DNA of 43,112 bases from Rhodospirillales bacterium 69-11 (GTDB lineage: Bacteria; Pseudomonadota; Alphaproteobacteria; Acetobacterales; Acetobacteraceae): assembly GCA_001898425.1 (NCBI GenBank), contig MKTV01000071.1:12993-56104 (forward strand). The letters are read 5' to 3'. Position 1 is the stretch's first letter, and every line of letters begins with the position of its first letter. The translations under genes and the position numbers were made by a program. The notes below the pieces were generated by a model that had not been told where the DNA came from, ran no database searches, and saw nothing but the letters and a program-made list of their open reading frames with translations. Shown here piece after piece: positions 3,239 through 14,113 of the stretch.

Positions 3239-4021
3239 CTAGCCGGCCGCATGGACCACGGGACATCCCCCACCCCGCTGCCGCTTGCGCGATGCCACCG
3301 CATATTCCCCCTTCGCCCGCAACGGTCGGCTCGACGGCTCGACGAACCGCGCCTCCCACGCTTCCCAATCGGCCGCGGTCATGTCCGCCAGCGTGCCGGC
3401 CTGCATGTCCGCCATGGTCGCGGGCTGGTAGAGCCATTGCGGCACCGGCTGGGCCTGCACCAGAGGCGCGCGGGCGTGCAGACGTACCGGCGCGTGCGTG
3501 CGGGTCAGCCGCAGGTTGATGAACAGCGGCGCCCGCCAGGTATCGGTCTCGACGATGCCCTCGAGCACGTCGTAGCCGCCGAACAAGGGCACGTTCGCAG
3601 GACGGCGCAGCAGCAGCGACCAGCCGGCGGCGGTGGCGGCGATCACGCCCAGCGACACCTGCACCACGCCCGGCTCCTGCATCGCGGTGAACAGCGCGCC
3701 GCCCACCGGCTCGAGTCCGGCCGGCGCGTGCGCCGCGATCGCATCGCTCATGCCCGGAAAGGCGCAGGAATCGTCGAGCGGCGCGTACTCCTCACCATCG
3801 AAGGAGTAGAACACCGACCCGCCGTCCCAGAGCAGCCAGGCATCCATCGGAGGGTATAACCACCAGCCGAAGCCGCAGGCGCTGGTCACCGCCTCGCAGT
3901 AGCGCGCCGCCCGGATCGGGAGGGAGCCGCCGGCGTCGCGCAGGGCCGGACGGGGTGCCATCGGGAGATCGGTGTAGCTCATGAACCGAGCGGCCGGGCC
4001 GCGCGCGGCAATGGGGGGCAT
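3239..4021 (-). CDS. DUF6065-like protein, putative partner of the repeat peptide
   Basis: A 260-residue protein. The start chosen is the ATG at 4019-4021 (MPPIAARGPAARFMSYTDLP), with GGAG seven bases upstream; an ATG at 4120 would add 33 residues translated from repetitive DNA. Landmarks are ARYCEAVTSACGFGWWLYPP (residues about 37-56), WLLWDGG, EPGVVQVSLGVIAATAAGWS, RRPANVP, LEGIVETDTW and PLFINLRLTRTHAPVRL. The GWSLL...PAN...EGIVETD...LTR order resembles what I know as DUF6065, a family without assigned function. The basic tail ends RQRGGGCPVVHAAG. It has no signal peptide and no membrane segment, so it is probably cytoplasmic. It lies 105 bp downstream of the repeat-peptide gene on the same strand, presumably in one transcript. 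Confidence 0.6.
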   Translation of the reverse strand: MPPIAARGPAARFMSYTDLPMAPRPALRDAGGSLPIRAARYCEAVTSACGFGWWLYPPMDAWLLWDGGSVFYSFDGEEYAPLDDSCAFPGMSDAIAAHAPAGLEPVGGALFTAMQEPGVVQVSLGVIAATAAGWSLLLRRPANVPLFGGYDVLEGIVETDTWRAPLFINLRLTRTHAPVRLHARAPLVQAQPVPQWLYQPATMADMQAGTLADMTAADWEAWEARFVEPSSRPLRAKGEYAVASRKRQRGGGCPVVHAAG

Positions 4022-4033
4022 GGGGAGTCTCCG

Positions 4034-4095
4034 ACGCGAAAATGGGCCCACGCGGAACGGGCCAACGCCAAAAGGGGCCAACGCGAAAGGGGCGG
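4034..4095. repeat. Four degenerate 15-16-bp tandem repeats
   Basis: Units start at 4034, 4050, 4065 and 4081 and follow the pattern ACGCGRAAANGGGCC with small variations (lengths 16, 15, 16, 15). They fill the leader of the DUF6065-like gene, between the precursor hairpin and the ribosome-binding site. In the frame of that gene they would read as PF-x-VG/LA repeats. I take them as untranslated spacer because a good ribosome-binding site and ATG lie downstream. Confidence 0.6.
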
Positions 4096-4117
4096 CCGGC
4101 ACGTAGCGGTGCCGGCC
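4094..4117 (-). terminator. Hairpin between peptide gene and DUF6065-like gene (attenuator-like)
   Basis: GGCCGGCAC and GTGCCGGCC form a perfect 9-bp stem with a 6-base loop, starting 9 bases after the stop codon of the peptide gene. No T-run follows in the direction of transcription, so it is probably a partial terminator or 3'-end stabiliser. Hairpins in this position commonly give a precursor gene more transcript than its downstream enzyme gene. Confidence 0.5.
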
Positions 4118-4126
4118 CATGTGCGC

Positions 4127-4318
4127 TCAGCCGATGACGCGGTAGCCCCCGCCGATCGTGCGATATCCCCCGCCGATGGTGCGGTAGCCGCCACCGATGG
4201 TGCGGTACCCGCCACCGATCGTTCGAGGAGCGCCGGCGTCGACGGCCCGGACGGGATCGGTCGGCGCCGCGGCCGCGGTATCGATGCGGGCGACGAAGCT
4301 GGGCGTACGGAAGCGCAT
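4127..4318 (-). CDS. Heptad-repeat peptide, candidate RiPP precursor
   Basis: A 63-residue ORF starting at the ATG at 4316-4318, with AGGAG eight bases upstream. Residues 1-31 (MRFRTPSFVARIDT, then Ala/Pro/Asp-rich) look like a leader. Residues 32-59 are four exact copies of the heptapeptide RTIGGGY, and the protein ends RVIG, a fifth partial copy. DNA of the repeats varies at third positions while the peptide stays identical, which points to selection on protein sequence. Short length, leader plus repeated core, a hairpin after the stop and a conserved-looking partner gene downstream are the usual layout of ribosomally made, modified peptides. No protease, transporter or known RiPP enzyme (YcaO, radical SAM, LanB, DUF692) is adjacent. 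A structural or regulatory role is also possible. Confidence 0.6.
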   Translation of the reverse strand: MRFRTPSFVARIDTAAAAPTDPVRAVDAGAPRTIGGGYRTIGGGYRTIGGGYRTIGGGYRVIG

Positions 4319-4387
4319 GCTGATGTCTCCTGCCGTGTCCGGCGCGCCCATGCGGGCCGGATCCACCCCGCGCAGTGCGGGGCGGAG

Positions 4388-6218: not shown

Positions 6219-7700
6219 TCAGTGCGATTGCTTCAGCGCGGGCTGCGACTTGTCGTGGGTGGCGAACCGCTCGACCATCGTGGCGCTCGCATCGTTGAGC
6301 CCCGCGACCTCGACCTCCCGCCCGTGGCGCCGCGCCTTCAGCACGATGCGGTCGAGCGCGCCGATCGCCGAGATGTCCCAGAAATGCGCGCCGCTCACGT
6401 CGATGACCAGGCGCTCCACCGGCTCCGTCACGTCGATTGCATCCGCGAACGTGCCGGCGGAGGCGAAGAACACCTGCCCATCGACGAAGTAGGTCCGCGT
6501 CTTGCCGTCCTCGGACAGGACGGACGTCACGCGGCTCAGTCGTGAGACCTTGCCCGCGAAGAACACGCCGGACAGCAGCACGCCCACCAGCACGCCCTTG
6601 GCCAGATCCGCGGTCGCGACCACGGTGCCCACCGTCGCCAGCATCACGACGGAAGACGGCAGCGGATTGCTCCGCAGCCGCGCGATCGAGCGCCAGGAGA
6701 AGGTGTTGATCGACACCATGATCATCACGGCGGTCAGGGCCGCGACGGGAACGATCGCCAGCAGATCCTGCAATGCGACCAGCAGGACCAGCAGGAACAC
6801 ACCCGCCACCAGGGTCGACAGCCGCCCGCGCGCGCCGGACGTCACATTGATCACCGACTGCCCGATCATCGCGCAGCCGCCCATGCCGCCGAACAGGGCC
6901 GAGGCCACGTTGGCAATCCCCTGCCCCACGCACTCCCGGTTCTTGCCGCTCGGTGTGTCGGTCATGTCGTCGACGATCTGCGCCGTCAGCAGCGATTCGA
7001 GCAGGCCGACGGCCGCGAGGGTCAGCGCGATCGGCGCGATGATCCGCAGCGTCTCGAGCGTGAACGGCACGTCGGGGACGCCGAAGCTGGGCAGCGCGGA
7101 GGGCAGTTCGCCCAGTTCGGCGACGGTGCGCACCGGCAAATGCGCGACACTCGCGATCACGGTCAGGACCACGATGGCGACGAGCGGCGACGGCACCGCG
7201 GTGGTGAGCCGGGGAAAGAGGTAGATGATGCCGAGGCCGAGCGCGATCAGCGCGTAGGTGGCGGGAGTCACGTCGACCAGTTGGGGGAGCTGCGCCATGA
7301 AGATCAGGATCGCGAGCGCATTCACGAACCCGGTCATCACGGACTGCGACACGAAGCGCATCAGGCGCCCGAGCCGCAGCGCGCCTGCGATGATCTGGAA
7401 GACGCCCATGAGGATGGTCGCAGCGAACAGGAACTGCACGCCGTGGTCATGCACGATGCCGGTCATCAGCACGGCCGTGGAAGCGGTCGCTGCCGAGACC
7501 ATCGCGGCACGGCCGCCGGTGAAGGCGATCACGGTCGCGATCACGACCGAGGCGTAGAGCCCGACCTTGGGGTCGACGCCGGCGATCACGGAGAAGCCGA
7601 TCGCCTCCGGGATGAGCGCGAGTGCGACGACCACTCCGGACAGGGTTTCGGCACGCAGATTGGGACACCAATCGCGCGCGATCGAGGACATGGAAGGCAT
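6219..7700 (-). CDS. SulP family anion transporter with STAS domain
   Basis: An inner-membrane protein of 493 residues, start taken at the ATG at 7698-7700 ([11 protein letters not shown]); an ATG three codons later is possible. The membrane domain (residues about 15-390) opens with [37 protein letters not shown], the SulP signature region, and contains [25 protein letters not shown]. The C-terminal STAS domain (about 405-485) contains [15 protein letters not shown] and [19 protein letters not shown]. The family moves sulfate, bicarbonate or dicarboxylates; this architecture often marks bicarbonate or sulfate uptake, but the substrate cannot be read from sequence. It converges with selO, stops 22 bp apart. 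Confidence 0.88.

Positions 7701-11214: not shown

Positions 11215-14113
<2,899 letters not shown>

Follow-up and report, generated by a model that had tools for sequence, protein, structure and literature searches.

A conserved repeat-peptide gene paired with a DUF6065-type protein of predicted dUTPase-like fold in Acetobacteraceae

Background

Multicore RiPP precursors, such as those of the cyanobactin, microviridin and graspetide types, are small genes of repeated units lying ahead of a larger gene. A small precursor-like gene stands beside a larger gene in the same way in Rhodospirillales bacterium 69-11, within the 43,112 nt stretch of contig MKTV01000071.1 analysed here (positions 12,993 to 56,104; henceforth the window). 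The larger gene encodes a protein with the core of DUF6065 (PF19541), sharing the pattern GxxETDxW...N with the canonical members of that family. The preliminary description of this locus proposed it as a candidate RiPP-type system. Neither a description of the pair nor any mention of DUF6065, PF19541 or four strings of the repeat unit was found in the literature searched, and no model in Pfam or NCBIfam was reached by any of the peptides tried. The repeat peptides form a family that neither of these databases covers, and together with their partner they make up a two-gene module of a new kind.

Results

The peptide gene (P0001, 63 aa) lies at 4127..4318 on the reverse strand, with its ATG at 4316-4318 and a likely ribosome-binding site, AGGAG, picked out by eye at 4327..4331. 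Its product consists of a 31-residue non-repetitive N-terminal part (4226..4318), with AVDAG near its end, four exact RTIGGGY heptads (4142..4225) and a partial fifth unit, RVIG (4130..4141); coordinates and translation agree with the preliminary description of an ORF with a good ribosome-binding site and a non-repetitive leader ahead of identical heptads. Its remark that third codon positions vary between copies of a constant peptide was likewise borne out, the six pairwise comparisons of the heptads containing 23 synonymous and no non-synonymous codon differences. Downstream on the same strand is the partner gene (P0002, 260 aa; 3239..4021), with its best start at 4021, its stop at 3239 and a likely ribosome-binding site, GGAGA, at 4028..4032 (by eye). 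The hairpin reported between the genes is present on this strand as a 9 bp stem with a 6 nt loop at 4094..4117, but no terminator-like site was found between them, and the hairpin was ruled out as a special feature of the window, the intergenic stretch folding no more stably than shuffled sequences (z -0.13). The genes flanking the pair are of housekeeping type, with a pyrroline-5-carboxylate reductase and SelO recognised by Pfam and the rest named by eye.

The pairing was surveyed across 87 loci, comprising 80 fetched neighbourhoods, six related-locus matches (including one from Bradyrhizobium, L036, and one from an Acidobacteriota MAG, L037) and the window itself; 86 of these are distinct, L055 being the same as L035. 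An upstream repeat peptide accompanies the partner in 81 of the 86, detected in 71 by a unit profile built from regular-expression matches in 55 of the surveyed loci and in ten, the window among them, as diverged forms recognised by eye. The same profile matches only five of 954 background windows of 1.5 kb, one of which contains a clear second peptide gene (L067), and the two genes are therefore not chance neighbours. Partners without a peptide nearby, the case that the preliminary description had counted against its proposal, do occur: no adjacent peptide was seen in the five remaining loci (L037, L057, L090, L094 and L100), nor, unlike in the peptide-associated subfamily, at any of 16 canonical DUF6065 loci within the upstream stretch scanned, where the best unit score was 5.9 bits and the upstream ORFs held no unit-like repeat.

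The association extends to loci outside the set from which the profile was made. All four full-length partners of this kind in a sample of 289 genomes of the class, from two other families, are accompanied by a peptide (one by profile at over 9 bits, three by eye). Similarly, a Rhizobium plasmid, the one read of two matched, carries the pair with three DDGKVHIANKSPAFDI-type units. Querying viral contigs with an alignment of partners (A4) retrieved 19 loci from IMG/VR, an earlier query with a single relative having matched none; leaving aside five contigs with under 60 nt upstream, a peptide is present in 13 of the 14 with at least 170 nt (12 by profile and L177 by eye, L175 being the miss). 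No partner was found at 1e-20 in a phylum-level sample of 298 other genomes.

The partner is matched at E values up to 0.001 in 102 of the 299 genomes sampled from the GTDB family of the window, and strongly in 97; about one genome in three of this sample has a dedicated partner. When the peptide was searched for at E values up to 0.01 using a profile based mostly on these same genomes, and the five genomes with only weak partner matches (E above 1e-6) were not counted as having the partner, 90 genomes have both genes, seven the partner only, nine the peptide only and 193 neither (Fisher p 1e-56). Three of the nine peptide-only genomes were examined (G082, G083 and G191), and in each the locus ends at a contig edge. 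Four of the partner loci without an adjacent peptide (L057, L090, L094 and L100) are split pairs, their genomes (G014, G133, G233 and G154) encoding a peptide of matching class at another site. Lone peptides, including L144 and L155, have no partner alongside, and G125 has two extra lone peptide genes (L148 and L149) and a single partner match.

The two genes have also diverged in concert. In four genomes with diverged paralogues, and with two recent duplicates of G176 set aside, all nine peptides are nearer to the peptide of the closest foreign partner than to the peptide of the other paralogue within the same genome. Across 70 loci the partner and peptide distances are correlated (Mantel r 0.55, with none of 2000 permutations as high), and the correlation falls to 0.23 for pairs whose partners are less than 60% identical.

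The usual repeat unit is (D-x-G)-[KR]-[VI]-R-[LIF]-G-[GA], with a core of [KR]-[VI]-R-[LIF]-G-[GA]-x, after which F, Y, W or M is frequent. Peptides contain from one to at least 18 copies, most commonly at periods of 17-20 residues, the heptads of the window and its nearest two relatives, L033 and L034, being shorter. Taking one unit from each of 83 loci (71 distinct loci of the family survey and 12 from IMG/VR), D is found in 100%, the following G in 92%, [KR] in 87%, [VI] in 98%, R in 87%, the second G in 100% and [AG] in 94%, values that selection by profile inflates; when all variants of the unit are considered, no residue is invariant. At most 24 of 72 loci counted encode a single unit, for instance L056 and L061, this number being an upper bound as L089 was counted as one despite having three diverged units and L073 was masked. 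The preliminary description suggested measuring selection on the repeats, and their protein sequence is indeed constrained by purifying selection: the aggregate pN/pS is 0.31, and of 48 multi-unit peptides 47 have pN lower than pS. Taken together, the pair is a genuine one that is conserved, co-evolves and is selected at the protein level.

The general unit profile does not detect the window peptide, the best upstream segment (2.9 bits) falling outside it. Nevertheless, the RTIGGGY heptad is best read as a contracted form of the general unit: although the profile gives no support, homology is suggested by the position of the gene, by its partner, and by the AVDAG that precedes the first heptad, or AIDSG in L033 (AIDSG-DRTLGGGYR), which resembles the D-x-G opening of units elsewhere. 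L033 and L034 both have like repeat peptides upstream of the partner with the repeat ORF intact; the stops in close relatives that the preliminary description had considered were not seen there. Another contraction, with a 14-residue period counted by eye, is found in L123. The genome of the window also harbours a second pair (L039; G000:C60), with a partner of 44% identity and at least eight units of the KVRLGAFAPTLPQPDAT kind; there are therefore two classes of system in one genome. Peptide arrays are found at contig ends in L141-L143, L146, L150-L154, L156, L157, L159 and L181, and it is therefore probable that the repeats break assemblies, in which case arrays may be both longer and commoner than they appear.

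The 'DUF6065-like' character given to the partner holds for part of the protein. Residues 117-224 match the Pfam model (E 1.1e-10; score 41.9 bits, cut-off 26.6), and no other family was found for it in Pfam or NCBIfam, but the full-length protein falls in a subfamily distinct from the canonical members, the two groups being split with full support in a tree with five canonical rows. In this tree the partner of the window groups, with support, with those of L033 and L034, on a long branch whose join with L110 is flagged by the program as possibly false. Some canonical DUF6065 cores appear to be fused to what we take to be other domains, cupin_8/JmjC-like in L134 (4718-6389, reverse strand) and SapC-like in L125 (4487-6260, reverse strand). 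In 70 aligned partner proteins R139, N143, E154, E158, N169 and R171 are invariant (L038, L055 and, on grounds of length, L049 being left out of the partner set). The E-T-D/W...N pattern of this site is present in 83 of 87 partners and also in 14 of 16 canonical proteins without a peptide; the site may therefore serve something other than the peptide.

A model of the partner from 24 sequences (pLDDT 85.5, pTM 0.79), which replaced one from a shallower alignment (pLDDT 57.9), predicts a dUTPase-like fold. Among the matches listed by Foldseek for the PDB, all 50 are dUTPase entries (best E 5.6e-5), and in BFVD the matches are unnamed phage proteins and viral dUTPases. The link comes from the template-free predicted fold, sequence searches having found none to dUTPases or to any solved structure; one weak solved-structure row (E 0.14), an unrelated-looking binding protein, was dismissed. 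When compared by sequence, the G-[IV]-V-E-T-D-x-W segment of the partner recalls what we take to be the dUTPase motif GxIDxDYxG, with a glutamate presumably where the catalytic aspartate would be; a GxVExD resembling motif III is present, and the other dUTPase motifs appear diverged.

The commonest neighbour is a BTAD-type regulator gene, found in 61 of the 86 distinct loci (one member tested by Pfam) and seen neither in the window nor in the available stretches around L033 and L034. It lies beside the lone peptides L144 and L155, though not beside L145, L147, L148 or L149, and none of the four split partner loci has it; the regulator may therefore travel with the peptide. A response-regulator-like gene, as at 6781-7260 on the reverse strand of L074 (Pfam E 7.9e-6, just under the cut-off), points towards the 3' end of the partner gene; a related ORF was found in 22 loci by a first clustering, and 33 loci match the form in L172. 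Apart from these two, no cluster of neighbours, as named by eye, recurs in more than 11 of the 87 loci, an ABC-type ATPase-like ORF being found in eight.

Some of the settings are phage-like. The pair is situated between endolysin and integrase genes in L177 (4173-7338), and near terminase and portal genes in L178 (4950-10558); in L172 (1-5450) the partner is at the contig edge, again close to terminase and portal genes. The L172 type of terminase is present in 16 of the 19 IMG/VR contigs (L161-L175 and L179), a collection biased towards such genes, and in four of the 80 fetched family neighbourhoods (L053, L061, L074 and L089), mostly accompanied by portal and scaffold genes in what may be prophages or gene-transfer-agent-like regions. 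In PHROGs, phrog_7084, a family of unassigned function, matches L036 at 1.2e-6 and the window partner weakly, at 0.0076. A phage origin was rejected as a general explanation, as the window partner matches none of 50,697 phage records at E 1e-5 and the terminase is found in so few of the family neighbourhoods.

Discussion

That the two genes work together, which the preliminary description had proposed from their adjacency, is now well supported by that adjacency across loci, by co-occurrence, by co-evolution and by the retention within one genome of genes that have moved apart. How they do so is a more tentative matter. The reading favoured over modification of the peptide is that of a dedicated peptide ligand, each unit of which would act on a protein of dUTPase fold: the two would form a cognate pair, the peptide being a chain of short units, each able to gate or complete the pocket of the partner, although even this is held at slightly less than an even chance. 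The peptide would be made first, probably in excess, inside the cell, and would not be chemically changed. Each unit would bind the partner on its own, most likely docking as a strand and then a glycine turn on the dUTPase-like domain, where it may gate or complete the pocket carrying E-T-D-x-W...N-x-R. As single-unit peptides occur, one unit seems to work alone, and further units would represent more dose rather than a defined assembly; where the BTAD-type regulator is present, it probably sets that dose. In 33 of the 74 loci measured, the sequence following the peptide gene folds more stably than its shuffles (z below -2), which is consistent with the production of more peptide than partner; the window is not one of them. 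Less easily accommodated are the Acidobacteriota locus L037 and contig L175, which have a partner and no peptide seen, the lone peptides such as L144 and L155, the nine family genomes with a peptide match but no strong partner match, the low correlation among the more diverged pairs, and a dUTPase link that is predicted from fold with no sequence match.

The main rival, considered less likely, is that the partner introduces chemical changes into every unit of a multicore precursor, from which a protease encoded elsewhere frees the product. The precursor-then-partner order, which stood from the original RiPP proposal, fits such a scheme, as do the stable folding downstream of the peptide gene in many loci, the presence of lone peptide genes where the partner lies elsewhere in the genome, an MFS transporter gene overlapping the partner gene by 4 nt in the Rhizobium plasmid, and an enzyme-like predicted fold with invariant polar residues; an enzyme with many substrates would also suit the peptide-first order, the extra lone peptides of G125 and the long arrays. 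The rest of the proposal fared less well. A conserved leader and variable core would be expected, but the opposite is seen, with the repeats conserved and the N-terminal parts, judged by eye, varied, and no protease or exporter gene recurs among the 87 neighbourhoods. As had been noted at the outset, there is no known RiPP enzyme nearby: NCBIfam and Pfam give no fitting RiPP model and place the partner in no known modifying enzyme family, and we know of no RiPP enzyme matched by the predicted dUTPase-like fold. The locus is at most a candidate RiPP system. The ligand reading is favoured over that of a substrate because the polar site is common to proteins without a peptide and because no unit residue is constant over all variants, a pattern more in keeping with binding than with a reaction at a single side chain.

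It is less likely that a dUTPase-fold family has had its flexible, pocket-closing C-terminal arm moved to a separate gene, the tandem arm-like units of a microprotein completing the pocket in trans, with the activity of the pocket then being set by unit number and by a dedicated regulator. The partners do lack the canonical DUF6065 tail, and the unit appears to be a basic strand with a glycine turn, frequently with F, Y, W or M after it, and may resemble dUTPase motif V. However, the unit is not detectably related to the canonical tail: its profile has no convincing match in 16 canonical proteins, and descent from that tail (KLRL against KVRL) was rejected as 287 of 1000 shuffles did as well.

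Still less probable is a module of phage-host conflict, carried either by phages or by their hosts, in which the peptide restrains the partner or arms it on infection. The loci beside endolysin, integrase, terminase and portal genes, the frequency of the terminase in the IMG/VR contigs and the phrog_7084 matches point in this direction, but PADLOC has no match for partner, peptide or regulator, the phage records have none for the window partner, and 76 of the 80 family neighbourhoods contain no such terminase within the bases fetched. Finally, although high-GC DNA yields many open frames and the general profile does not score the window peptide, the idea that the repeat ORF is a functionless DNA repeat beside the partner by chance is contradicted by selection, co-occurrence, enrichment and paralogue matching, and can be set aside.

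The pair gives DUF6065 a testable role and provides a way to study how a dUTPase-like fold can be put to use together with, or upon, a short peptide motif. Whether it represents a trans-acting arm, a new peptide-modifying enzyme or a phage-borne switch, it stands outside the families searched.

In comparison with multicore RiPP precursors, it is here the whole unit that is conserved and not, as judged by eye, the leader, with no known RiPP enzyme and no recurrent protease or exporter. A gene related to the BTAD/SARP-type regulators accompanies most of the distinct loci, but not the window. Canonical DUF6065 proteins have a C-terminal tail, H..[TIQSL]K[LVR], in 15 of 16 cases and in none of the 87 peptide-associated partners, 84 of which end instead in G.[YFHV][AG]...[RK], both patterns having been written after the sequences had been seen. 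From trimeric dUTPases (e.g. 3ecy and that of M. tuberculosis) the partner differs in its approximately 10% identity, in its extra N-terminal and helical parts and, by eye, in having no Gly-rich C-terminal arm; it resembles them in its predicted fold, which aligns to a dUTPase chain with a TM score of 0.78 on the target.
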